Below, piece by piece: positions 627-13,339 of a DNA stretch of 13,339 nt (positions are counted from its first letter, which is position 1; each line of letters opens with the position of its first letter). Where the stretch lies: the NCBI GenBank assembly GCA_013813825.1, contig JACCRA010000345.1, positions 1 to 13,339 of the forward strand, given 5' to 3'. Made by a program: the position numbers and the translations under genes. This DNA is from Pyrinomonadaceae bacterium (GTDB lineage: Bacteria > Acidobacteriota > Blastocatellia > Pyrinomonadales > Pyrinomonadaceae). Under the pieces are notes generated by a model. The model made no database searches, was not told the DNA's origin, and saw only the letters and a program-made list of their open reading frames with translations.

Positions 627-3600
627 TTATTGTTTCTTCGCGACGCCCTTGCCGAGCTTCCGCCATTCGCCCGACTGGATGAAGCTGGCCCAGTAAAACG
701 GGTGGCTGTAATCGCCCGCCATAGCGGCTGGCGCGCGCATGATGTCGCCGACCCCACGCTGCTCGCCGGCGTTTCTCTTCTGACTGTTACGATTGCCAGC
801 AGTGTTCTTCAGCATCCCCAGTTGCACTTGGCGAAGCGCCTCGCTACGCCCCTCGCCCGCTTGCAAACGCTTGTAATAAGCGACCATCAGATCGCGTGTC
901 GCCGCGTCCGACACCTGCCACAAACTCATTAACTGGCTCTCGCTGCCCGCCAGTACTAGCGCGCGCCGGAGGCCGTACACGCCGTCGCCGTTTTTGACTT
1001 CGCCGACGCCGGTTTCGCACGCCGACAGCACTACCAGTTTGGTCCCCCAGAGGTCGAGGCTCGTGGCTTCGAGCGCGGTCAATAATCCGTCGTCATTCGC
1101 GCCGCTGCCGCGGTTATTCACGCCCGCCAGCGCGAGACCGGAGCGCAACAAAGGATTCTCGCCGCCCGCTTTCTCATTACCGCCGCCGAGCTTCAAACCG
1201 CGCGCCTCTTGCGCCCCGGCCGCGGCACTCTGGTCCGGCAGGAAAAAGCCGTGCGTGGCGACGTGCAAAATGCTCGGCCCCGCCACCCGCTTGAGCGCGG
1301 TTTCGGTGGCTTGCGCGCCGGTGAAGACGCTTGGCTCGGTGAGGATCAAGTTGATCGCCGCAGCCTCGGCGGCGGTGCCGGGCAGTGGGGAAAACTTCGC
1401 TTCGGCCAGTGCGGCCGAACGGCGATTGTTGAGGCCGCCCTCGTTGTCCGCCTCCGTCAACTGCTCTACGTCGCCGCCACCGCTGCGGGCGCTGATGCCG
1501 CCCGCGTCGAACGACGGGTTGGCGAAGAGTGTCGGGCTTTCCCGGCTGTTCACTTCCGTTTGCAAGCGCAGCAGATCGCGCCCGCTGGAGAGATACGTGA
1601 TCGTGTAGCTTTCGATCAGGTATCGCCCGCGCTCATCGACGAGCGCGCTGAATGGAATCAAATTGAGCGCGCCGTCGGGCGAGATGAATAGCGCCCGCGC
1701 CCGTTCGCCGAGCAGACGCCGCACCGGCAACATCACGCGCGCATCCAGTTCCCGCGCCAACTGCCGCGCGTCCGCCCGGCGCGGATTGCTCAAAGCGCCG
1801 CGCCAGCGCGCCACAGCTTCGTCAATCGGCGCAGCCTCGCCCAGATCGACCCACTGCGCCGACGATGCGCCTCCTTCGCGCCGCAGAACGTAGGCGGCAT
1901 AGCGCGCCGGCTTGAATTTGATAGCCTTCGCGTCCACCGGGCGGAAAAGCACCAACTCGACGAGCGCCGCCTCCGCCGGAATCGACGCCTGCACGCGCTC
2001 AATCGTCACGGGTTGCGACTGTGCGCGAAATTCCTTGCTCCGCGCGCTGATCAATTCTTCGAGCCGCCCGACCTCAACCTCACGCCGCCGGATCAGTTCT
2101 TGACCTTGCGCCGCCCCGGCAGCGTCATCAACAGCCGACGGGGCGGAGCTGAGTTTCAACGTCGCCAGTTCCGAGCGCGCCGCCGCGAGTTGGTCCAGCA
2201 AAGCCCGGTCTTCCGCATTCAGCCGCCGCCGCAAAGCGCCGATCTGATCCGACATCGCGTCGAGCGCTCGCCCCTTGCGGCGCAAAATCGTTGTCAGTGC
2301 GAGTCGCGCGGCAGTCCCGTCCGCCGGTGCGGACGCGAGGTGGAATGAAACCGAAACGTGAGTTTCGTTGGTGAGCGTTTCGAGGTAAAGCAGTTTCTGC
2401 TGTTCCGAGCCAATCGTGAGAATCAGCGAGAGAGTCTCTTCGCGAATGTCGTTGGCGCGCGTGAGATGCCGGATGGCCTGCGTGGGGTCGCCGGCCGCTT
2501 CCGCCAGCATGGCGAGGTTGGCGTACAAGGCCGCCACATCCGGATGTTGTTCGCCCCGCGCCCGCTGCGTGATGCTCAACGCGCGCTCATAGAGCGGGCG
2601 GGCGCGCTCGTAAGCGCCCTGCCCGTGATAGACGCCGCCGAGATTGTTGACAGCGGTGGCGAAGCGCGGGTGGCGCGGGCCGAGCTTCTTCTCGAAAATT
2701 TGGAGCGCCCGCTCGAACATCCGCGCGGCGCGCTCTTTGTCGCCTTGTTCGTCGTAAATGAGTCCGAGTGTGTTGAGCGACGAGGCCACGTCCGGGTGTT
2801 CCGGGCCGAGAGCTTTTTCGCGGATGGCAAGCGCGCGGCGGGCCAGCGGTTCGGCTTTCGCTTGCTCGTCCCGGTAGTGGTAGAACGTGGCTAAGTTATT
2901 GAGAGTGGTCGCCAATTCCGGGTGCTCCGCCCCGTAGGCTTTCTCGTCGATCTCGACCACACGCAGTAACGACGCCTCGGCGCGCGGATAGTCGCCTAAG
3001 TCACGATATAACTCGGAGAGGTCGCTCAAGATGACGCCGTAAGTGGGGTGTTCCGCCCCGTATGATTTTTCGACGATGGGTAGTGCCCGTTCCATCAACT
3101 CCTTGGCGCGCACGATGTCGCCCTGCTGGGAGACGATCTGGCCGAGATTGAAAGAGTAGAGCGCCGTTAGGATGTGTTCCGCGCCGTTCGCCTGCGTGCT
3201 GATCTGCAAAGTGCGCTGGCGGTACTTCTCGGCGCGCGCGTAATCGCCCTTTTCGTTATTGAGTAGCGCGAGGTTGTGCAGCGGGGCGATCAGTTCTCGA
3301 TGATCGCGCCCGGACGCTTTCTCGCGAATCGCCAACGAGCGCAACAGCAACTCTTCGGCGCGCTTGTAGTCGGCCTTTTTCATGTAGAGAAGTGCGAGCG
3401 AATCCATTCGGATGACAATCTTTGCGCTGTCGGGGCCGTGCTCCTTTTCGGTCACGTTGAAGGCGCGGCGCAGCATCTGCTCCGCGCGATCATAATCACC
3501 TTGATCTTTATACATCGAGCCGAGCGCACCGAGCGGCAAGTCGAGAAAAAGATGCTCCGGCCCGCGCTTCTTTTCGTAGATCGCCAACGCCCGCAAGTAC

Positions 3601-3965
3601 GCTGGCTCGGCGCGGGCGAAGTCGCGCCGGCGCGTGTAAATGCCTCCGAGTTGGATCAGCGCGGTGGCGACCGCTTCATCATCCGGCCCTATTTCCCCCT
3701 CGGCAATCGCCAGCATCTGCTCGGCGAGCGGCAACGCTTCGTCATATTTGTCTTCGCTCTCAAGTTTGATGGCCTGTTCGAGTAAACTGGTGATCCGTTC
3801 CCGCGCCTTTCCCTGCGCTTGCAAGACTTTCAGCCGGGCTTCCATTTCGTCCGCGCTCGGCGGCGTCGGCTGTTGAGCGCGCGCGCCAGCCGCCGCGCCA
3901 CCTAAAAGACAAGCGAACAATAAAAGTGACAGTGATAATCTCGTCATCAGATTTCTTGCTTTCAC
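627..3965 (-). CDS. Exported TPR-CHAT protease-like protein, 1112 aa
   Basis: The N-terminus is a signal peptide (MKARNLMTR, a hydrophobic core LSLSLLLFACLL, then an AxA site in GARA before QQ). LFAC also fits a lipobox, so a lipoprotein is possible. About 11 tetratricopeptide repeats of roughly 42 residues (kinesin-light-chain type, with GDYxRAE and GxEHP signatures) span residues 55-510. A charged, probably coiled segment follows near 570-650. The C-terminal CHAT domain (about 735-1105) has the expected His905 in HVATHGFF and Cys983 in LSACETG, so the caspase-like dyad is intact. CHAT is a clan CD cysteine protease fold; the TPRs presumably bind a protein partner. I chose the GTG at 3965 because GAGAGG lies 8 bases upstream. 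A GTG at 3974 and an ATG at 3947 are alternatives. Substrate and role are unknown. Confidence 0.9.
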   Translation of the reverse strand: MKARNLMTRLSLSLLLFACLLGGAAAGARAQQPTPPSADEMEARLKVLQAQGKARERITSLLEQAIKLESEDKYDEALPLAEQMLAIAEGEIGPDDEAVATALIQLGGIYTRRRDFARAEPAYLRALAIYEKKRGPEHLFLDLPLGALGSMYKDQGDYDRAEQMLRRAFNVTEKEHGPDSAKIVIRMDSLALLYMKKADYKRAEELLLRSLAIREKASGRDHRELIAPLHNLALLNNEKGDYARAEKYRQRTLQISTQANGAEHILTALYSFNLGQIVSQQGDIVRAKELMERALPIVEKSYGAEHPTYGVILSDLSELYRDLGDYPRAEASLLRVVEIDEKAYGAEHPELATTLNNLATFYHYRDEQAKAEPLARRALAIREKALGPEHPDVASSLNTLGLIYDEQGDKERAARMFERALQIFEKKLGPRHPRFATAVNNLGGVYHGQGAYERARPLYERALSITQRARGEQHPDVAALYANLAMLAEAAGDPTQAIRHLTRANDIREETLSLILTIGSEQQKLLYLETLTNETHVSVSFHLASAPADGTAARLALTTILRRKGRALDAMSDQIGALRRRLNAEDRALLDQLAAARSELATLKLSSAPSAVDDAAGAAQGQELIRRREVEVGRLEELISARSKEFRAQSQPVTIERVQASIPAEAALVELVLFRPVDAKAIKFKPARYAAYVLRREGGASSAQWVDLGEAAPIDEAVARWRGALSNPRRADARQLARELDARVMLPVRRLLGERARALFISPDGALNLIPFSALVDERGRYLIESYTITYLSSGRDLLRLQTEVNSRESPTLFANPSFDAGGISARSGGGDVEQLTEADNEGGLNNRRSAALAEAKFSPLPGTAAEAAAINLILTEPSVFTGAQATETALKRVAGPSILHVATHGFFLPDQSAAAGAQEARGLKLGGGNEKAGGENPLLRSGLALAGVNNRGSGANDDGLLTALEATSLDLWGTKLVVLSACETGVGEVKNGDGVYGLRRALVLAGSESQLMSLWQVSDAATRDLMVAYYKRLQAGEGRSEALRQVQLGMLKNTAGNRNSQKRNAGEQRGVGDIMRAPAAMAGDYSHPFYWASFIQSGEWRKLGKGVAKKQ

Positions 3966-3990
3966 GCCCCACACCTCTCAGTCGCAAGGT

Positions 3991-4034
3991 ACAAATTTAC
4001 GACTCACCCGCGCCGGCGTTTAATGAAAATTTGT
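3991..4034. promoter_or_regulatory. Inverted repeat between divergent genes, possible operator
   Basis: ACAAATTT (3991-3998) and AAATTTGT (4027-4034) are perfect 8-base inverted copies, 28 bases apart, in the AT-richer part of the divergent region between the TPR-CHAT gene and korA. They lie just upstream of the TPR-CHAT start (26 bases from the GTG at 3965). Spacing of roughly three to four helical turns between half-site centres would suit cooperative repressor binding. Chance is not excluded for an 8-base pair. Confidence 0.3.
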
Positions 4035-4141
4035 GAGCCAGTTGGGGGACAACTGACAGCGCATCTTAACACTTTGAAATTTAATCGGGGGTTCTCGGAT
4101 TCAATACGGCGGTTGTGCCGGCAACGGTTTTGAGTCGTCGC

Positions 4142-4171
4142 TTGGATCGCGCGCGCGCGCCTGTGTACAAT
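4142..4171 (+). promoter_or_regulatory. Candidate sigma70-type promoter of korA
   Basis: TTGGAT (4142-4147) and TACAAT (4166-4171) are separated by 18 bases and each resembles the sigma70 consensus. Transcription would begin near 4178 and give a leader of about 75 bases before the korA ATG at 4253. The spacer contains a pure alternating CG run (4148-4160). The promoter falls inside the upstream-extended open frame that begins at 4115, which argues that the longer protein is not made. Confidence 0.5.
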
Positions 4172-4252
4172 GAACTGAAACTAACAGCTGAAGGCCACTC
4201 GCCCGAAGCCACAGCTTCGAGACACCAATCGACAGGAATCATTACAACACTT

Positions 4253-6121
4253 ATGAGCGCCATCATCGACACTCCGCCAGTTGAACACGCCGAGAAAAAC
4301 TTTGAAGAGTTGGAGACTGTCACCATCCGCTTCGCTGGCGACTCCGGCGACGGAATGCAGTTGACCGGCACGCAGTTCACCAATACTTCGGCCGTCCTCG
4401 GCAACGACATCTCGACTTTGCCCGACTTCCCGGCCGAGATTCGCGCGCCCGCCGGAAGTCTGCCCGGCGTCTCCGGCTTCCAGCTAAACTTTTCGAGTCA
4501 GGATATTCGCACGCCCGGCGATGAGCCGAACGTGCTAGTGGCGATGAACCCGGCGGCCTTGAAAGTCAACCTCTCCGACTTGGAAGAGGGCGGCACGATT
4601 ATCATCAACACCGACGAGTTCAACAAAGAGAACTTGAAGAAGGCGGCTTACGCCGCGAACCCGCTCGAAGACGACACACTGAAAGGCTACCGCGTCCACC
4701 GCTTGCCGATCACCAGCGTCAATTTGCGCGCGCTGCAAGAGGCGGGCGTCAAGCTGACGCGCAAGGAGATGGATCGCTGCAAAAACTTCTTCGCGCTCGG
4801 CATTCTCTACTGGCTTTATGATCGCCCGATGGAGCCGACCCTGAACTGGATCAACGCCAAGTTCGGCAAACTTCCCGAAGTCGCCCGCGCCAACGAGATC
4901 GCCTTAAAGACCGGCTACAATCTGGCCGACACGACCGAAGTCTTTACCACTCACTACACGGTCAAGAAGGCGGCGATTGCGCCGGGCAAGTATCGCAAGA
5001 TCACCGGCAACGAAGCGACCGCGCTCGGCTTCGTCGCCGCGTCGCAACTCTCCGGTCGCCCGCTCTTCTACGGTTCGTACCCGATCACGCCCGCCTCGGA
5101 CATTCTGCACGAGCTGGCGCGTCATAAAAATTTCGGCGTTAAAACCTTTCAAGCCGAAGACGAGATCGCCGCCGTCTGCGCGGCCATCGGCGCGTCGTTC
5201 ACCGGCCACCTCGGCTTGACGGGAACCAGTGGCCCCGGCGTCGCTTTGAAACAGGAAGCCATCGGCCTCGCCGTGATGACGGAACTGCCGCTCGTGATCA
5301 TCAACGTCCAGCGCGGCGGTCCTTCGACCGGCTTGCCGACGAAGACTGAGCAGGCTGATCTCTTTCAAGCCGTGTGGGGACGCAACGGAGAGTGTCCGGC
5401 CATCGTCGTCGCGCCCTCGACGCCCGGCGACTGCTTCCACATGGCGATTGAAGCCACGCGCCTCGCTTTCAAATACATGACGCCGGTCTTCTATCTCTCC
5501 GATGGCTACTTGGCGAACGGCGCGGAGCCGTGGGCCGTACCGCAGATCGACGAGTTGCCGAAGATCGAAGTGAAGTTCGCCGACGATCCGCAAAACTTCC
5601 TGCCCTATGCCCGCGACGAAGAGACGCTCTCGCGCCCCTATGCCGTGCCCGGCACGCCCGGCTTGGAACACCGCGTCGGCGGCATCGAGAAAGAACACCA
5701 GACCGGGAACGTCAACTACGATCCCGAAAATCATCACTTCATGGTGCAACTGCGCCAAGCCAAAGTTGACCGCGCCGCGCTCGACATTCCCGATCTCGGA
5801 ATCTTCGGCGAGCGAACCGGCAAGGTGCTCGTGTTCGGCTGGGGATCGACTTACGGTTCGATCACCACGGCTGTCGAACGCTTGCAGCGCGAAGGCCATT
5901 CGGTGTCGAGCGCGCACCTGCGCTACCTGAACCCGTTCCCGAAAAACTTGGGCGACGTGCTCTCCGGCTTTGAGCGAGTGATCATCCCCGAAATGAACCT
6001 CGGCCAACTCTGCACGATGATCCGCGCGAAGTATCTCGTGGACGCCGTCGCCTTCTCCAAAGTCAAAGGCCGCCCCTTCCAGATTCGCGAGATCGTGCGG
6101 AAGGTCGAAGAGTATTTGTGA
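4253..6121 (+). CDS. korA: 2-oxoacid:ferredoxin oxidoreductase, gamma-alpha subunit
   Basis: This is the larger subunit of a two-subunit enzyme that oxidatively decarboxylates a 2-oxoacid to its acyl-CoA with ferredoxin as electron acceptor, most likely 2-oxoglutarate to succinyl-CoA. The 622-residue length fits the fused gamma-alpha form. The gamma domain (about 22-215) has [15 protein letters not shown] at 25-39 and a conserved [14 protein letters not shown] block. The alpha domain carries YPITP at 276-280, AEDEIAA, the TGTSGPG loop and [11 protein letters not shown] from residue 353. The frame stays open back to 4115, but I start at the ATG at 4253: the gamma domain begins about 20 residues later and a promoter lies inside the extension. 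AGGAA sits 14 bases upstream, a long spacing. It leads an operon with its partner korB two genes downstream. Substrate is inferred from the family. Confidence 0.93.
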
Positions 6122-6133
6122 GAGGTCGCTATC

Positions 6134-6688
6134 ATGGCAATCACAACACAACTGATGACGGCGGAAGAATTGCTGGCGATGCCGGATGACGGCTTCCGTT
6201 ATGAACTGGTGGAAGGAGAGTTGAGACGGATGGCGCCTGCGGGTCAGTATCATGGGTGGGTTGGCATGGAATTGTCCGGCCCACTTCACCAGCACGTCAA
6301 AAGTCACAAGCTCGGTAAAGTCTTTATGGCGGAGACGGGGTTTCAACTCCGTCGTGATCCCGACACGGTCCGCGCTCCTGACAGCGCGTTCGTGAGGCGC
6401 GAGCGAGTCGAGCAAGTCGGGCGGACGAAAGGCTACTGGCCGGGCGCGCCCGATCTGGCGGTGGAAGTTGTTAGTCCGGGTGACACCGTGAGCGAGGTCG
6501 AAGAGAAGGTGCGAGAGTGGTTACATTTCGGCACGCGCTTGGTCTGGATCGTCAGTCCGAAACTGCGGACGATCACGGTCTATCGCTCGCTCACGGACAT
6601 CGTGACGTTGACGGAGAAGGACGTGCTTGACGGCGGCGATGTCGTGCCGGGCTTTCAAATTCCCGTCGCTGAAATCTTTGGCTTATGA
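6134..6688 (+). CDS. Uma2 family endonuclease-like protein, 184 aa
   Basis: The protein fits the Uma2 (DUF820) family, which has a restriction-endonuclease-like PD-(D/E)XK fold and no settled biological role. The N-terminal MTAEELLAMPDDGFRYELVEGE block is typical. Candidate catalytic residues are present: Asp83 in APDSAFV, Glu111 in LAVEVVSP and Lys125 in EVEEKV, so an active nuclease fold is plausible. The length is usual for the family. GAGG (6122-6125) lies 8 bases before the ATG, and only 12 bases separate it from the korA stop. Its TGA overlaps the next start as ATGA. Its position between korA and korB is unexpected. Family members are often present in many copies in a genome and appear mobile; here that is inference. 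Confidence 0.88.
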   Translation: MAITTQLMTAEELLAMPDDGFRYELVEGELRRMAPAGQYHGWVGMELSGPLHQHVKSHKLGKVFMAETGFQLRRDPDTVRAPDSAFVRRERVEQVGRTKGYWPGAPDLAVEVVSPGDTVSEVEEKVREWLHFGTRLVWIVSPKLRTITVYRSLTDIVTLTEKDVLDGGDVVPGFQIPVAEIFGL

Positions 6689-7323
6689 TCACTTCCACTT
6701 TCAAAGGTAATTCACGCTCAGTGCAAGACGTGTACGCGGAGGGCTTGCGCTACTTCATGGGGCAAGGAAGTCTCAACCACGCGCTGGCGCAACTCGCCAC
6801 CGATTTGCAGCGGCGGGAGATTGATTACATGGTCATCGGCGCGGTCGCTTTGTTAGCCCACGGCTACCCACGCTTCACCGAAGACATCGACTTGGTGATG
6901 ACAAAGGAAGGCTTAGACGTTTTTCATCGGGAGTTGATCGGACTCGGCTACGCGCCCGCGTTCCAAGGGGCGCGAAAGCGTCTGCGGGCGACGCGCGACG
7001 GCGTCAGCATCGAAATTATCACTTCCGGCGAGTATCCGGGCGATGGCAAACCTAAGCCGGTTAGTTTTCCCGTCCCCGCCGCCGCTTCAGTTGAAATTGA
7101 CGGCGTGCGGATCGTTACGCTGGAGAAACTGATCGAGTTGAAGCTGGCCTCCGGCATGACCGCGCCTGATCGTTTGAAAGACTTGGCCGATGTGCAAGAG
7201 TTGATTAAAGTCCGCAAGCTCACTTCCGACTTCGCGGAACGATTGGACCCTTATGTCCGAGATCAGTATTTGAAATTATGCCGGGCTGTCGAGCAGTCCG
7301 GGCGAAAAGAGGTTGAGGAATAA
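6685..7323 (+). CDS. AbiEii/MNT-like nucleotidyltransferase, 212 aa
   Basis: A nucleotidyltransferase fold is indicated by IGAVALLAHGYPRFTEDIDL (residues 51-70), which combines the glycine-bearing first motif with a DxD metal site (Asp67, Asp69). Glu110 in GVSIEI is a candidate third acid. Relatives act as toxins (AbiEii), as antitoxins that modify a partner (MNT), or have unknown roles, so function cannot be assigned. The start is inside the end of the Uma2 gene (ATGA overlap) with no clear Shine-Dalgarno of its own, implying translational coupling. Its stop TAA directly abuts the korB ATG, and its last codons contain the korB ribosome binding site. No HEPN or other toxin partner is seen beside it; the only immediate accessory neighbour is Uma2. 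Confidence 0.82.
   Translation: MITSTFKGNSRSVQDVYAEGLRYFMGQGSLNHALAQLATDLQRREIDYMVIGAVALLAHGYPRFTEDIDLVMTKEGLDVFHRELIGLGYAPAFQGARKRLRATRDGVSIEIITSGEYPGDGKPKPVSFPVPAAASVEIDGVRIVTLEKLIELKLASGMTAPDRLKDLADVQELIKVRKLTSDFAERLDPYVRDQYLKLCRAVEQSGRKEVEE
7315..7319 (+). promoter_or_regulatory. korB ribosome binding site inside the preceding gene
   Basis: GAGGA sits 4 bases before the korB ATG at 7324 and lies within the last codons of the nucleotidyltransferase gene. It supports this start despite the unusual N-terminal extension of KorB, and it ties korB translation to passage of ribosomes through the upstream gene. Confidence 0.6.
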
Positions 7324-8454
7324 ATGGATACGAACGGAAAAAATGGAGATGGGTTGGGCAGCATCGGCGGCAATGTTTCGGGGAGCGGCCCTTCGCCGGA
7401 AAGCGAGCCGGGATCGGTGGTGGCTGGTGCGGTCGCGCCGCCGCCGGCGAAGTTGACGAAAGCGGATTTCGTGTCGGGGCAGGAAGTCCGCTGGTGTCCC
7501 GGCTGCGGCGATTATTCGATTCTGAATAACGTGCAGAAGGTAATGCCGGAGCTTGGCATCCCGCGCGAGAAGATCGTGTTTGTCTCCGGGATCGGCTGCT
7601 CGTCGCGCTTTCCGTATTACATGAACACTTACGGTTTCCACTCGATTCACGGGCGCGCGCCGGCGGTAGCGACCGGCATCAAAGCGGCGAACCCGGAATT
7701 GAGCGTCTGGGTCATCACCGGCGACGGCGACGCTTTGAGCATCGGCGGCAACCACTTTATGCACGCCATCCGCCGCAACCTCGACATGAATTACGTTCTC
7801 TTCAACAATCGCATCTACGGTTTGACGAAGGGGCAGTACAGCCCGACCTCGGAGTTGGGGAAGAAGACGAAATCGACGCCGATGGGTGTTATCGATTACC
7901 CGCTCAACCCGCTCTCGGTCGCCATCGCGAGCGAGGCCACGTTCGTCGCTCGCTCATTGGATATTGATGTCAAACATTTGGGCGCGACGGTGCAGGCGGC
8001 GGCCCGACACAAGGGCGTCTCGTTCATCGAGGTCTATCAGAACTGCAACATCTTCAACGACGCCGCGTTCGAGTATTTCACCGACCGCTCGGTGCGCTCC
8101 GACAACATGATCTATTTAGAGCACGGCCAGCCGATGGTCTTCGGCAAAGAGCGCGACAAAGGTATTCGCATGAACGGCGCGCAGCCCGAAGTGGTTCAGT
8201 TTGGGGGCGAGACCGGCCTCAATGAAAACGATCTCCTTGTCCATGACATCCACTTGAAAGACCCGTCCGTCGCCTTCATGCTCGCGCGTATGGAGCAGCC
8301 AGACTTCCCGCAGCCAGTCGGCATCTTCCGCGCCGTCGAGCGCGCGACCTACGAAGACATGCTCGTCGATCAGATCAACTCCGCCATCAGTAAATCCGGC
8401 CCCGGCAGTCTGGAAAAACTGCTCAACAGCGGCGACACATGGGTTGTCGAGTAA
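7324..8454 (+). CDS. korB: 2-oxoacid:ferredoxin oxidoreductase, beta subunit
   Basis: KorB binds thiamine diphosphate and one [4Fe-4S] cluster and forms the catalytic centre with KorA. Four cluster cysteines are visible: Cys58 and Cys61 in WCPGCGDY, Cys92 in GIGCSS and Cys241 in YQNCNIFND. The TPP/Mg motif is GDGDALSIGGNH from 133 with NNRIYGLTKGQ at 161-171. The first 42 or so residues are a Gly/Ser/Pro/Ala-rich extension not usual in this family, but the start has a good ribosome binding site. It is the last gene of the korA-Uma2-nucleotidyltransferase-korB run. Codons 328 to the stop are repeated at 12003-12152, so this 3' end could have been exchanged by recombination. No ferredoxin-like delta subunit is encoded nearby, as expected for the two-subunit type. 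Confidence 0.94.
   Translation: MDTNGKNGDGLGSIGGNVSGSGPSPESEPGSVVAGAVAPPPAKLTKADFVSGQEVRWCPGCGDYSILNNVQKVMPELGIPREKIVFVSGIGCSSRFPYYMNTYGFHSIHGRAPAVATGIKAANPELSVWVITGDGDALSIGGNHFMHAIRRNLDMNYVLFNNRIYGLTKGQYSPTSELGKKTKSTPMGVIDYPLNPLSVAIASEATFVARSLDIDVKHLGATVQAAARHKGVSFIEVYQNCNIFNDAAFEYFTDRSVRSDNMIYLEHGQPMVFGKERDKGIRMNGAQPEVVQFGGETGLNENDLLVHDIHLKDPSVAFMLARMEQPDFPQPVGIFRAVERATYEDMLVDQINSAISKSGPGSLEKLLNSGDTWVVE
8305..8454 (+). repeat. Direct repeat, copy 1 (korB 3' end)
   Basis: The last 49 codons and stop of korB recur at 12003-12152 in the same orientation, 3698 bases downstream. The two copies align without gaps at 136 of 150 bases. Similarity stops abruptly on both sides. The interval between the repeats holds only the WD40-caspase gene and its flanks. 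Confidence 0.9.
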
Positions 8455-8463
8455 AGCACCGGC

Positions 8464-8495
8464 GCGCGGCTTTCATTCTCTGACGAAGGCCGCGC
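8464..8495 (+). terminator. Hairpin after korB, terminator-like without T tract
   Basis: The arms 8464-8474 and 8485-8495 pair over 11 positions with one G-U around a 10-base loop, starting 9 bases after the korB stop. It is GC-rich and well placed to end the korAB transcript, but no run of T follows, so termination is uncertain. Confidence 0.4.
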
Positions 8496-8583
8496 CGCGA
8501 CTGCCGTCGCCAATTCAATCCTGAAGCAACTCCTCGCGCACGCTATCCCGCGGTTCTCTTCGGTGCGCCCGAATGCCTGAGCC

Positions 8584-11500
8584 ATGAAAAGAATTATTCC
8601 CACCAAAACGATTATTCTTTTGCTTTTCATCTTTTATCCGGCCCCGACAATTTTCGCGCGGAAGCCCGAACTGATCGTGCAAGCCGGGCATTTCGGCTCG
8701 GCCCGATCGGTGATCTTCAGCCCGGATGGCAGACTGCTGGCGAGTGTGGACGAGCGCACCGTCAAACTGTGGGACGCGACGACGGGCGAGGAACTTCGCA
8801 CCATCGGGGACAATTCCGATTCGGTGACGGCCATTGCGTTCAGCCCTGACGGCAAAGCCTTGGCGAGCGTCGCCGGCAACGACAAGACGATCAAACTGTG
8901 GGACGTGATTTCTGGGCGGGAGTTGCGCGCGCTTAAAGGGCATTCTTCAATCGTCTATTCGATTGCCTTTAGTCCAGACGGGAGATCGCTGGCGAGCCTC
9001 AGCGTGGAGGCGCTCAATCTCTGGGACCTGACAGACGGCGGAAACCTGACGCCGAAGCGAGCAGCGACCGGCGGTCCTGCCGGCCGGGTCGCGTTCAGCC
9101 CAGATAGTAAAGTGCTGGCGAGTTTCGCTTATCACACTGTCACGTTGCAGGATGCGGTTTCGGGCGAACGGATTCGGACCTTTCCCGGTGGGCGTTTCGT
9201 CGTGTTCAGCCCCGATGGAAAGATTTTGGCAAGCCAAGACAGAGAGGACGATAGAAAAGTCAATTTGTGGGACGCACAGCAGGACGGCAAACTGCTCGGC
9301 ACGCTGGCGTGGCCGGGCGCTCCGCCCCGCTCAGGCATCCTCAGCACGGAAATTGAGGTCGTCGCATTTAGCCCTGACGGCAAGCTGTTGGCAATGGCCG
9401 GCGTGGACAAAACCGTTAAGCTCTGGAACGTAGAGACGCGACAGGTGGTTGGGACTCTGGCGGGCCATTCCGGTTTAGCCAACTCAATCGCCTTCAGCCC
9501 CGAAGGTCGCACGTTAGCCAGTGGAGGCTGGGATAAGGCCATCAGAATGTGGGATGCGGCGACGCACAGGGAGATTCGCCAAATGGCGAGCCACTCCGCT
9601 CTGCTCGGCTCGCTGGCGTTCAGCCCCGACGGCAAGACGCTAGCCGCCGTGAGCCACGGCCTCAAGCTGTGGGACTTGACGACGGGCTACCTGCTCCGCA
9701 CCTTGGAAGGCGCGGCCTCTCCCATCGCCTTCAGCCCCGACGGCAAATTGTTGGCGAGCGGCGGATCGGACGGGCTGATGTTGTGGGACACGGCCTCCGG
9801 CAAAAAACTCGGAACCTTCAAGAAAGGGCTGCCCGACATCTTCCGTCTGACGTTTAGCCCGACGGGAAAACTGTTAGCTCTCGACGGCGGCGAAGATCAG
9901 GTCATTCTGTGGGACGTGACCGCGCGCCGTGTGTCCCGGACGTTCACCAATGCGACCTCCGTTAGTTCGTCGGCTTTTAGCGCCGACGGGAAGGTGATCG
10001 CCTGCAAGGGCAACGACGGCCGGACGAACATCTGGAACGTGGCGACGGGCGTGAAGGTTGCAACGATTAACAACCAAGAGGTTTCCGCCGCCGCTGTCGC
10101 GCTCAACTCGAACGGCAAGCTCCTCGCATTTGCGGTTGATGGCATTGCCCTCTACGACATAACGACCGGCAGGAAAATCCGCACGCTGAAGGAGGACAAC
10201 ACCTCTTACTACACCGCCATCGCCTTCAGTCCGGACGACAAGACGTTAGCGATAGGGAGCGAAGACGGCACGGTCAAGCTGTGGAGTCTGACGACAGGCG
10301 AGGCCATCCCCGCCTCGGGAGAGTTGCCCGAATGGATTAACTTCGACGGCAAATTTGCGATCAAAAACGTCAACGGCAAATCCGTCGCCGCCCTCAATGA
10401 AACCGGCAAGATCAATCTGATTGATGCTCTCACCAAAACAGAACTAATCTCGCTCATCGCGCTCGACGAGCGGGAATGGGTCGTCGTCGCACCCGACGGC
10501 CTGTTCGACGGCACGCCGCGCGCATGGAAGCGCCTCGCTTGGCGTTTCAACCAAAACACTTTTGAGACCGCGCCAATCGAAGCCTTCTTCGACGAGTTTT
10601 ATTATCCGGGACTGCTGCAAGAAGTGATTGCCGCCATCGGCGGCCAGCGCCCGCGCGCCTCGGCCAGCATCGCCGATAAAGATCGTCGCCAGCCGCGCCT
10701 CCGCCTCGCCCTCGCCGACGCGCCAAAAAATAATGAGCCGAGCGCTGCCCGGACAGTCAAACTCGCCGTCGGGATTGAAGCCGGGCCGGGCGTTGAGGCG
10801 CGTGACCTCCGCCTGTTCCGTAACGGCGCGCTCATTCGCGTGTGGCGCGGCGACGTGCTGCGCGGTAATCAGAGCGTCACGGTTGAAGCGAACGTGACGC
10901 TCGTGGCGGGAGAGAACCAGTTGACAGCCTATGCCTTTAATCGTGACAACGTGAAAAGCGCGGACGCGACGCTCGCCGTCACCGGCGCGGCTACGCTCAA
11001 GCGTCCCGGCACAGTTCGTGTGCTTTCAATCGGCGTCAACTCCTACGCCAATGCGCGCTACGATCTGAAGTTCGCCGTCGCCGACGCGCGCGATTTCGCC
11101 GACACACTCAAAGAGCAGCAGCAACGCCTCGGCCTCTATGAAAGCATCGAAGTCACTCAACTCCACGACGGTCAAGCGACGAAGGCCAACATTCTTAAAG
11201 CACTCACGGAGTTGGCCGCCAAGTCGCAGCCGGAAGACGCCGTCGTCATCTTTTTCGCCGGTCACGGCACGGCGAGCGGGCAGCGTTTCTATCTCATCCC
11301 GCACGATCTCGGCCACATGGGCGAACGGACGCTGACCGATGAATTTCAAATGCGCGCCATTCTCGATCACAGCGTCTCGGATTTGGAGTTGGAAAAAGTG
11401 CTGGAACCGCTTGACGCTGGGCAGGTCGTTCTCGTCATCGACGCCTGCAATTCCGGGCAGGCATTGGAGTCGGAAGAGCGCCGCCGGGGACCAATGAACT

Positions 11501-11892
11501 CAAAGGGGCTGGCCCAGCTTGCTTATGAAAAAGGGATGTACGTGTTGACCGCCGCGCAGAGTTTTCAGGCCGCGCAGGAAGTCTCACAACTCGGCCACGG
11601 CTTGTTGACTTACGCGCTGATTGAAGAAGGCTTGCGGCAACGCGCGGCGGACACCGAACCGCGCGACGGCAGCGTCTTTCTGCGTGAGTGGCTTGACTAC
11701 GCGACGGCGCGCGTCCCCGAAATGCAACTCGACCAGATGGAGAAGGCGCGCGGTCTCGGCCTCAATCTCTCTTTCAAAGACGAAGAGCGCGGCCTGCCCC
11801 TCGCCCGCCGTTCAGGTCAGCGCCCGCGCGTTTTCTACCGCCGCGAAAGGGAAACGTCATCGCTCCTCATCGCCCGCCCCGCCGGGTCGTGA
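8584..11892 (+). CDS. Exported WD40-caspase (peptidase C14) fusion, 1102 aa
   Basis: The N-terminus is a signal peptide (MKRIIPTK, then a hydrophobic IILLLFIFYPAPTIFA) with a likely cut after Ala25. About 13 WD40 units follow, recognised by FSPDGKxLAS and xKLWD signatures, with a fourteenth degenerate unit ending in WVVVAPDGLFDG near 630-641; this suggests two seven-bladed propellers. A beta-rich, possibly Ig-like segment spans about 715-805. The caspase-like domain (about 809-1012) has His894 in FFAGHG and Cys955 in DACNSGQ, an intact clan CD dyad. Bacterial fusions of this kind are thought to be regulated proteases; export implies a periplasmic or extracellular role, and its substrate is unknown. 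No clear ribosome binding site precedes the ATG. It lies between two copies of the korB 3' end, which suggests acquisition as a block. Confidence 0.93.
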   Translation: MKRIIPTKTIILLLFIFYPAPTIFARKPELIVQAGHFGSARSVIFSPDGRLLASVDERTVKLWDATTGEELRTIGDNSDSVTAIAFSPDGKALASVAGNDKTIKLWDVISGRELRALKGHSSIVYSIAFSPDGRSLASLSVEALNLWDLTDGGNLTPKRAATGGPAGRVAFSPDSKVLASFAYHTVTLQDAVSGERIRTFPGGRFVVFSPDGKILASQDREDDRKVNLWDAQQDGKLLGTLAWPGAPPRSGILSTEIEVVAFSPDGKLLAMAGVDKTVKLWNVETRQVVGTLAGHSGLANSIAFSPEGRTLASGGWDKAIRMWDAATHREIRQMASHSALLGSLAFSPDGKTLAAVSHGLKLWDLTTGYLLRTLEGAASPIAFSPDGKLLASGGSDGLMLWDTASGKKLGTFKKGLPDIFRLTFSPTGKLLALDGGEDQVILWDVTARRVSRTFTNATSVSSSAFSADGKVIACKGNDGRTNIWNVATGVKVATINNQEVSAAAVALNSNGKLLAFAVDGIALYDITTGRKIRTLKEDNTSYYTAIAFSPDDKTLAIGSEDGTVKLWSLTTGEAIPASGELPEWINFDGKFAIKNVNGKSVAALNETGKINLIDALTKTELISLIALDEREWVVVAPDGLFDGTPRAWKRLAWRFNQNTFETAPIEAFFDEFYYPGLLQEVIAAIGGQRPRASASIADKDRRQPRLRLALADAPKNNEPSAARTVKLAVGIEAGPGVEARDLRLFRNGALIRVWRGDVLRGNQSVTVEANVTLVAGENQLTAYAFNRDNVKSADATLAVTGAATLKRPGTVRVLSIGVNSYANARYDLKFAVADARDFADTLKEQQQRLGLYESIEVTQLHDGQATKANILKALTELAAKSQPEDAVVIFFAGHGTASGQRFYLIPHDLGHMGERTLTDEFQMRAILDHSVSDLELEKVLEPLDAGQVVLVIDACNSGQALESEERRRGPMNSKGLAQLAYEKGMYVLTAAQSFQAAQEVSQLGHGLLTYALIEEGLRQRAADTEPRDGSVFLREWLDYATARVPEMQLDQMEKARGLGLNLSFKDEERGLPLARRSGQRPRVFYRRERETSSLLIARPAGS

Positions 11893-11925
11893 AACATGAC
11901 TGGTCAAGAGCGAAGCGGAAAAGGT

Positions 11926-11943
11926 GGGAGACCATTGGTCCCC
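11926..11943 (+). terminator. Hairpin after the WD40-caspase gene
   Basis: GACC (11930-11933) pairs with GGTC (11937-11940) around an ATT loop, extended by GGG (11926-11928) with CCC (11941-11943) across a bulged A. It starts 34 bases after the stop codon. No T tract follows, so it is only a possible transcript end. Confidence 0.3.
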
Positions 11944-12002
11944 TCCCGGCCTGCGAGTTGATCCCGAAGCGCGCCGCTCTCTAACTCTTACCTTTCGCCT
12001 TC

Positions 12003-12152
12003 TTTCCGCAGCCCGTCGGCATCTTCCGTGCCGTCGAGCGCGCCGCTTACGAAGACATGCTCGTCGATCAGATCAACGCCGCCATCAGTAAATCCGGCCC
12101 CGGCAATCTGGAGAAACTGCTCAACAACGGTGACACGTGGGTTGTGCAGTAA
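12003..12152 (+). pseudogene. Truncated duplicate of the korB 3' end (direct repeat copy 2)
   Basis: The frame from TTT at 12003 reads FPQPVGIFRAVERAAYEDML and on to the stop TAA at 12150-12152, matching KorB residues 328-376. Compared with korB there are 14 base differences in 150 and no indels; nine are synonymous and five change the protein (T to A, S to A, S to N twice, E to Q). That pattern implies that most divergence happened while both sequences were coding for a working KorB. Upstream of 12003 similarity ends sharply, and no start codon or ribosome binding site gives this piece a life of its own. It is either the displaced native end of korB or the rest of a deleted second korB. Confidence 0.9.
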
Positions 12153-12158
12153 GGAAAG

Positions 12159-12247
12159 GGATGAGTGCGGAGGGATGAGGGATGAATCAGAAAAGCACTC
12201 AAACGAGTTAATGCTTTCATTCATCTCTTATCCCTCCGCCATCATCC
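12159..12247. repeat. Long imperfect inverted repeat, MITE/REP-like or bidirectional terminator
   Basis: The arms 12159-12187 and 12219-12247 match at 25 of 29 positions as inverted copies; two mismatches become G-U pairs in plus-strand RNA, so 27 of 29 can pair. The loop can fold further through AAAGCA with TGCTTT and ACTC with GAGT. Each arm contains short GGATGA-type iterations. The element starts 7 bases after the korB fragment stop, and its right arm includes the last codon and stop of the minus-strand receiver gene. Its location between converging genes fits a two-way terminator; the arms also look like a dispersed intergenic repeat. Confidence 0.75.
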
Positions 12248-12607
12248 TTTGATCAGCCTGCGGATGGTCTCCACCAACAGGAAGAGATCGTGCGGCTTGC
12301 GGAGGAACTCGTTCGCGCCCGCCTCTTTCGCCTCCCTCTCACAATCTTCTATCGAGAACAACATAATCGGCAACGACTCCCGGTGCGGCAAACTTCGCGC
12401 GAATTTGACCACCTCCAACCCCGTCGTGTCCCGCAATTCATTATCCACCAGTAACAGGGCATAGCGTTGTTCGCCGCGTAGGAAGGTCTGGGCGGTCGTG
12501 CCGTCAGGTGCGCGCCAGACGTGCCAGCCGCCCAAGTCGAGCAGGTCGCCGACGAGTTGGGCGAGCATGAGATTGTTCTCGACGTAGAGGATGGCCGGTT
12601 GCACCAC
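12242..12607 (-). CDS. Stand-alone response regulator receiver (CheY-like), 121 aa
   Basis: A single receiver domain fills the protein. The predicted phospho-acceptor is Asp55 in LLLVDNELRDTTGLE, with Ser85 and Lys104 (LRKP) in the conserved signalling positions. The acidic pocket reads VENN at 9-12, so one of the usual metal-binding aspartates is replaced by Asn11. There is no output domain, so it would act by protein contact. The frame is open up to 12853, but I start at the GTG at 12607 because GGAG lies 7 bases upstream and the resulting protein begins right at the first strand (ILYVE). An ATG at 12655 is the main alternative. Its stop codon is supplied by the adjoining inverted repeat. 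No histidine kinase is in view. Confidence 0.8.
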   Translation of the reverse strand: MVQPAILYVENNLMLAQLVGDLLDLGGWHVWRAPDGTTAQTFLRGEQRYALLLVDNELRDTTGLEVVKFARSLPHRESLPIMLFSIEDCEREAKEAGANEFLRKPHDLFLLVETIRRLIKG

Positions 12608-12614
12608 GATGGTT

Positions 12615-12618
12615 CTCC
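12615..12618 (-). promoter_or_regulatory. Ribosome binding site deciding the receiver gene start
   Basis: On the minus strand GGAG is followed by seven bases and then GTG at 12607. Neither the ATG at 12655 nor the first ATG at 12853 has a comparable site. A weak promoter-like pair, TTAGCA (12672-12667) and CATAAA (12650-12645) with a 16-base spacer, would start transcription downstream of the ATG at 12655, also favouring the GTG. Confidence 0.45.
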
Positions 12619-12809
12619 ACGCGGGGCGCGGGCATGAGAGTTCATTTATGAGCATGAGGTGAGTTCTGCTAAGATGCGCGCGTTCGGTGAATGAAAATCC
12701 GCGACGGTCGTATGCGTAGCTCACCCTCAACCTCAACCGAGTGATGAGCATCGCCGTTGAGTCTGGAAGGCCAACACTCTCGGCGAACAAGTTACGCAAA
12801 CACATTCTA

Positions 12810-12823
12810 CCTACTGTTGTAGG
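12810..12823. promoter_or_regulatory. Small palindrome upstream of the XRE gene, possible operator
   Basis: CCTAC (12810-12814) and GTAGG (12819-12823) are perfect inverted copies around TGTT, 51 bases before the XRE start codon. HTH proteins of this class often bind near their own promoter, so it may be an autoregulatory site; that is inference only. The rest of the divergent region, 12608-12809, shows no gene and no strong promoter. Confidence 0.25.
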
Positions 12824-12874
12824 CGGAGGCAAGCGGCATCGCGCGAAGTCCAATTTATCGGGAGGCGACTCCTG

Positions 12875-13189
12875 ATGGGCTACGCGCGTCCGCGACCTAA
12901 GCGTTTGGCCGAAAAGCTGCTACAAATTCGGAACGCTCTCGGTCTGTCTCAAACAGATTTGTGGAGGCGGTTGGGAGTTGAGGATGAGATTTCACACAAG
13001 CTAATCTCAAAGTATGAACTAGACCAGAACGAGCCGCCGCTAAAGGTTCTCCTACAATATGCGCGGGTAGCGGGCGTCCACACCGAAGCCCTCATTGACG
13101 ACAATCTAGACCTCCCCTACAAACTCCCCGGCGACGTGCGCCACGAAGAGATCAAGCGCAAATACATACCGCGCGGCAAGAAGCGTTGA
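12875..13189 (+). CDS. Small XRE-family HTH DNA-binding protein, 104 aa
   Basis: A Cro/C1-type helix-turn-helix covers about residues 11-73: LAEKLLQIRNALGLSQTDL, then the recognition region around ISHKLISKYELDQNEPPL. The C-terminal tail is basic (KRKYIPRGKKR), which may add DNA contacts. GGAGG (12861-12865) lies 9 bases before the ATG, so the start is well supported. I recall this compact type, with an N-terminal RPRPKRLAEKL-like stretch and a C-terminal LIDDxLDLP segment, as a multi-copy family in acidobacterial genomes; that is memory, not a search. It is divergent from the receiver gene, with 267 bases between the starts, but a regulatory link is not shown. Confidence 0.85.
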   Translation: MGYARPRPKRLAEKLLQIRNALGLSQTDLWRRLGVEDEISHKLISKYELDQNEPPLKVLLQYARVAGVHTEALIDDNLDLPYKLPGDVRHEEIKRKYIPRGKKR

Positions 13190-13295
13190 GCGGCGAATAG
13201 AAGAATAACTGCCCCCTTCCGCCCGTTGGCCTCAATATCACTTTGAGCTAGACTAAACCGGATGATAACTATTCACCTTCGGAGCGTTCATTGTT

Positions 13296-13339
13296 ATGAC
13301 TGACGAAGAAAGAAGATTATTACGACTCGAAAACGCTGA
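13296..13339 (+). CDS. Start of an unidentified gene, cut by the right edge
   Basis: An ATG at 13296 opens the frame MTDEERRLLRLENA, which continues off the window after 14 codons. GGAG at 13281-13284 lies 11 bases upstream. The charged, probably helical beginning would fit many small proteins, so no function can be given. It is on the same strand as the XRE gene, 106 bases after its stop. Confidence 0.4.
   Translation, partial: MTDEERRLLRLENA

Follow-up and report, generated by a model that had tools for sequence, protein, structure and literature searches.

How did the 3' end of korB come to stand on both sides of a gene for a WD40-caspase protein? We addressed this question in a stretch of 13,339 nucleotides from a Pyrinomonadaceae bacterium (the window), which is the complete contig C422 of a metagenome-type draft genome (819 contigs, 78% complete) and contains no N. 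Its genes follow each other in the order TPR-CHAT protein (minus strand), korA, Uma2-type gene, nucleotidyltransferase-like gene, korB, WD40-caspase gene, response regulator (minus strand) and HTH protein. The intact korB (7324-8454, plus strand) encodes 376 aa and was assigned as the beta subunit of a 2-oxoacid:ferredoxin oxidoreductase by Pfam PF02775, by NCBIfam TIGR02177 above its cut-off and by the names of its homologues; the closest korB proteins that carry an organism name come mostly from Pyrinomonadaceae or Acidobacteriota. One korB protein (P0001; longest contig, 2153 bases) is two residues off that of the window, one of them being the last before the repeat described below (Asp-327 to Val), and possibly represents a second strain. 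The Uma2-type and AbiEii-like nucleotidyltransferase genes occupy 6134-7323 between korA and korB, where relatives have either, both or neither. The TPR-CHAT protein (627-3974) is a second type of caspase-like peptidase, located across the kor genes from the WD40-caspase, and the same arrangement is found in G043 (L044).

Comparison of both flanks of the caspase gene bears out what the initial annotation had described. Positions 8305-8454 and 12003-12152 (both plus strand) are direct copies, identical at 136 of 150 bases without gaps (BLAST E-value 2e-57), each ending in a TAA stop codon, with abrupt edges and one full gene between them (8584-11892, plus strand, 1102 aa). The 14 differing bases fall in 13 codons; nine are synonymous, as had been stated, and the other five replace a residue. 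The shared stretch extends one base further to the left (C at 8304 and at 12002), and beyond the repeat, the bases along this diagonal agree at 1-5 positions in each block of ten. Near the 5' edge, the copies differ at bases 3, 12, and 27, and the longest stretches of full identity (30 and 27 bp) are internal, with korB homology continuing to the left of these stretches in both copies. Chance similarity was ruled out as the source of the two copies, the next best place for the 150-mer in the window matching at 64/150 bases on the plus and 63/150 on the minus strand.

The gene between the copies encodes a WD40 propeller followed by a caspase-like peptidase, as judged from its ORF, profile searches and motifs. 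The caspase-like part contains AGHG at 892 and DACNSG at 953, which we take to be the His and Cys active-site motifs of a caspase homologue, and residues 814-1013 match the PADLOC caspase profile (7e-16). NCBIfam NF047832 matches with an E-value of 8e-18 but with 64.7 bits, under its cut-off of 140, and there is no Pfam caspase model among the best 25 of the 55 families listed for the window. The N terminus resembles a signal peptide by eye, and the gene product, as far as its sequence indicates, may be an exported caspase-like peptidase. Relatives listed outside its own 90% cluster (seven member sequences) are 55-62% identical over residues 600-1102. The GC content of the gene (0.606) is like that of its neighbors (0.543-0.632). 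WD40-caspase genes are patchily distributed, being found in 29 of 97 relatives' genomes at an E-value of 1e-60 or better, with at most seven candidates scored per genome. A phage origin of the protein was rejected, with no match among 50,697 phage records, as was a plasmid origin; here, all of 242 records were below 60% identity, and the only record in which the match spans 80% or more of the query was at 28%. One WD40-caspase protein, P0122, has a partial tandem repeat of its C-terminal caspase region. Caspase-like domains combined with WD40 repeats, as seen here, are known from prokaryotic caspase homologues, according to the extract of PMC3501461 that deals with them; the widespread form in this extract has NACHT, whereas the window protein is a propeller followed by the peptidase. 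For Pyrinomonadaceae and caspases together, the literature listed amounts to one paper, which to judge from its title concerns bacteria of the mosquito gut.

A member of the same family but of another genus, G019, has the site without the caspase gene. In this genome, korA, a Uma2 gene and an uninterrupted korB are directly followed by the response regulator and HTH genes. In the window, the response-regulator receiver gene is located at 12242-12853 (minus strand) and the HTH protein gene at 12875-13189 (plus strand), both recognized by domain search and by synteny with G019. Window positions 7300-13339 aligned to G019 DNA in two main pieces, 7362-8447 (83%) and 12002-13337 (75%), which share 144 bases in G019, and positions 12003-13339 searched alone gave a single continuous match (1335/1337 bases). 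This pattern fits an insertion of 8455-12002 (3548 bp, plus strand) with a 150-bp duplication, which predicts it. The last korB codon is Gln in G019 and in the distal copy, and the stop is followed by TAAGGAAA in both; the corresponding features of the proximal copy are Glu and TAAAGCAC. A Gln end is not rare, as it occurs in 20 of 118 homologues, and of the 14 differing bases, G019 shares seven with one copy and seven with the other. Synteny and the shared Gln and post-stop bases are the reasons why we read the distal copy (12003-12152) as the displaced remnant of the native korB 3' end. The reading that best fits the block 8455-12002, with the WD40-caspase gene in it, is an insertion, the distal copy marking the native end of korB; this supports the initial proposal that the gene had arrived as a block. 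Among the matches listed, G019 is the only other genome with a run spanning korB end, regulator and HTH gene (119 family genomes searched, three candidates scored per genome); the regulator-HTH pair itself is multi-copy, with matches away from korB in G019, G051, and G040. G019 could instead have lost an older insert through recombination between the repeats, but the absence of the caspase gene at this position in every other relative compared counts against such a loss.

Folding places a GC-rich hairpin past the proximal stop (8464-8495, plus strand), which is possibly a terminator brought in by the inserted block; the region overall folds no better than its shuffles (z -1.07, 26 of 200 equally good). 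The spacer from the end of the caspase gene to the non-homologous junction (11893-12002, plus strand) has no second copy that could be found in this genome, and a dispersed repeat was ruled out for 11880-12020, which matched itself alone. Behind the distal stop lies a long, near-perfect palindrome (12156-12250, plus strand; fold z -8.75), identified by repeat search as one of many dispersed copies in the genome (52 match rows, many of them both strands of one place). An element like it directly follows korB in G036 (L039).

We compared korB ends across relatives. The end was found in 43 of 119 family genomes at an E-value of 1e-8, a threshold that a more decayed tail copy could escape. In 42 of these, it occurs only in korB-length frames or in frames cut by a contig end, including two such ends in G001; a tail-only copy is confined to the remaining genome, that of the window. 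In a search of 97 relatives, the window's was again the only tail-only match among those listed. The korB loci of named genomes contain the end in 76 of 80 cases and never twice, and the caspase part is absent from all 80 loci; one (L105) has a WD40-only match distant from korB. No WD40-caspase gene was seen behind korB in 40 relatives' loci at 100 bits or more, none of these loci being congeneric; of the 32 loci followed further downstream, 22 extend at least 3.5 kb beyond korB. The genes behind korB vary, with a zinc-ribbon-like gene found there by eye in 15 of these 32 loci. The G051 draft has two kor loci (L035 and L052, 87% alike), one with a Uma2 gene and the other with a nucleotidyltransferase gene before korB.

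Which copy do the relatives resemble? The initial annotation had named a relative's end more similar to the distal one as support for insertion, and this was not borne out. By DNA bit score, 38 loci of relatives were nearer to the proximal copy in 30 cases, nearer to the distal copy in 4 and equal in 4, with G019 among the latter. By protein, the proximal copy was nearer for 107, the distal copy for 8 and neither for 3 of 118 homologous ends, a count that leaves out the near-identical P0001 and P0106, which is without the motif. The relative that had been envisaged is thus found in part: G019 has an uninterrupted korB followed by the genes from 12153 onward, but its korB end is not nearer to the distal copy. 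We explain the proximity of relatives to the proximal copy by faster change in a dead distal piece, as suggested by its longer branch in the tree below. No start codon lies in the distal frame from the stop preceding it (11982) up to an ATG inside the copy (12057), and two highly conserved residues have changed, a Thr (kept in 117 of 118 homologous ends) and a Ser (115 of 118); for these two reasons, the distal copy looks dead. The proximal copy, which forms the working 3' end of korB, has a Ser found in 2 of 118 homologues at a position where 86 have Ala, and private changes are present in both copies (29 gap-free relatives compared). In a tree of 33 korB ends, the proximal and distal copies are sisters (support 93/76, 91% of bootstrap trees, under the level that the tool marks with a star), with branch lengths of 0.041 and 0.079, respectively. 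Their identity of 90.5% lies within the range of 25 same-genus pairs computed (74.8-94.6%), and together with the sister placement this makes it most likely that the two ends separated in this lineage or among close relatives. The values of dN (0.046) and dS (0.33) would be expected if much of the divergence arose with both copies coding. Given private changes in both copies, the second end may also stem from an equally old duplication inside this genome.

We consider it probable that the gene was gained by ordinary recombination, in which a fragment from near kin, carrying a korB 3' end and then the WD40-caspase gene, would have recombined with the resident korB. As an ordinary gene gain, the event overall appears fairly well resolved; its direction, the gene order of the donor, the origin among near kin and the recombination route are what we infer. 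The locus contains a partial duplication of the homologous locus (150 bp) that adjoins non-homologous new DNA at a sharp junction (12002/12003), and two routes may have produced it. The DNA fragment of a close relative might have circularized, its right end (12002) meeting the left one within korB (12003), before a single crossover in the shared 150 bp brought it in. Alternatively, a linear fragment would have undergone homologous recombination on the korB side and an illegitimate join at 12002/12003; one shared base (8304/12002) is seen at this join, whereas microhomology of 3-10 bp is usual for the illegitimate route. Either route would leave korB whole, place the caspase gene behind it and turn the native last 150 bp into a dead piece beside its native neighbors. 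In the part of PMC3240628 on E. coli and conjugated and linearized plasmids, 56 of the 60 Lac-minus clones are reported to yield a PCR product diagnostic of a duplication; in the 14 that were sequenced, the end of the homologous gene is duplicated over 109-950 bp, which is interpreted as single crossover of recircularized molecules. This lacZ case, as presented in that part, likewise combines one homologous end, a duplicated piece on the far side and new DNA in between; it concerns a laboratory plasmid with a known donor, whereas the donor here is deduced. In an extract of PMC5361080, homology-facilitated illegitimate recombination with displaced downstream genes is proposed for Vibrio T6SS immunity arrays, and rhs orphan 3' regions are cited for the same displacement model. 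The homologous anchor upstream, the illegitimate join downstream and the native piece displaced downstream are common to that model, as the extract describes it, and to the window, which, in contrast to the Vibrio arrays, has no effector-immunity logic, has a metabolic host gene and contains a remnant that looks dead.

Could the distal end be what is left of a second korB? A tandem copy or a second kor operon may have lain downstream with the caspase gene in between, a deletion sparing only the last 150 bp. That most differences between the ends are synonymous would suit two genes that were both coding, and G051 and G001 each have two korB (87 and 79% alike, respectively). These are located on separate contigs, however, and both genomes are drafts, with contamination estimated at 6% (G001) and 3% (G051), so the extra korB may be foreign. 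An adjacent pair of korB, which the initial annotation had suggested looking for in relatives, was not seen in the loci compared, and G019 has a single korB with the same neighbors. We regard this deletion as unlikely. An assembly chimera, in which contigs of two organisms were joined at 12002/12003, seems improbable to us, although the junction rests on a single contig of a metagenome-type draft. The window is free of N, and a k-mer join needs a shared seam; the bases left of 12003 have no korB similarity, so that such a join would require a junction that already existed.

Prophage e14 in E. coli icd brings a replacement 3' end and displaces the original one. We give little credence to an analogous history for korB, in which a site-specific integrative element entered the 3' end with a replacement end and lost its integrase later. 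The likeness to e14 lies in the replacement 3' end with the original end displaced; the position at a gene 3' end and the intact frame fit such an element as well, and an empty site is present in a relative, G019. The site-specific parallel drawn in the initial annotation is nevertheless not supported. No integrase is among the gene products examined in the contig, as had been noted before, and the insert is a single full gene. There is no clean core, the first difference falling at base 3 of the repeat. The korB site is not reused in relatives, with a tail-only copy in 1 of 43 genomes, and gene-end repeats do not appear to be a general habit of caspase genes, since none of 44 other caspase ORFs is flanked by a repeat recognized as a protein-gene end. 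These ORFs come from the regions of 43 of the 57 match rows besides the window's, with 14 weaker or split rows left out; flanks were judged by eye, and those of five ORFs are too short for a full test. Direct repeats across the gene were found for 9 of the 44 at an E-value of 1e-3. Those of L195, L196, L209, L213, and L225 are short palindromes or other short matches, and those of L210 (twice) and L230 are neighboring WD40 paralogues, again by eye. In L226 (G017, contig C18, plus strand, about 4010-10384), a WD40-caspase gene is located in a 6.3-kb stretch with a tRNA-Gln gene on one side and, on the other, a perfect 45-bp repeat of the 3' end of that tRNA gene, which indicates that tRNA-flanked segments can carry such genes and thus favors the integrative element. 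The L226 flanks have an additional 107-bp match (70%), and the stretch includes what by eye is a broken UmuC-type gene, with no integrase recognized among ORFs of at least 100 aa; it is likely the remnant of a tRNA-targeted element. That small integrative cassettes, mobilized in trans, carry the WD40-caspase genes of Pyrinomonadaceae and target and restore gene 3' ends (tRNA-Gln in G017, korB here) strikes us as very doubtful.

Gene gain by ordinary recombination would make this locus a readable trace, left in nature, of the way in which one accessory gene can come to follow a housekeeping gene that stays intact, with no mobile element involved. It would also point to a way in which bacterial WD40-caspase genes might spread.
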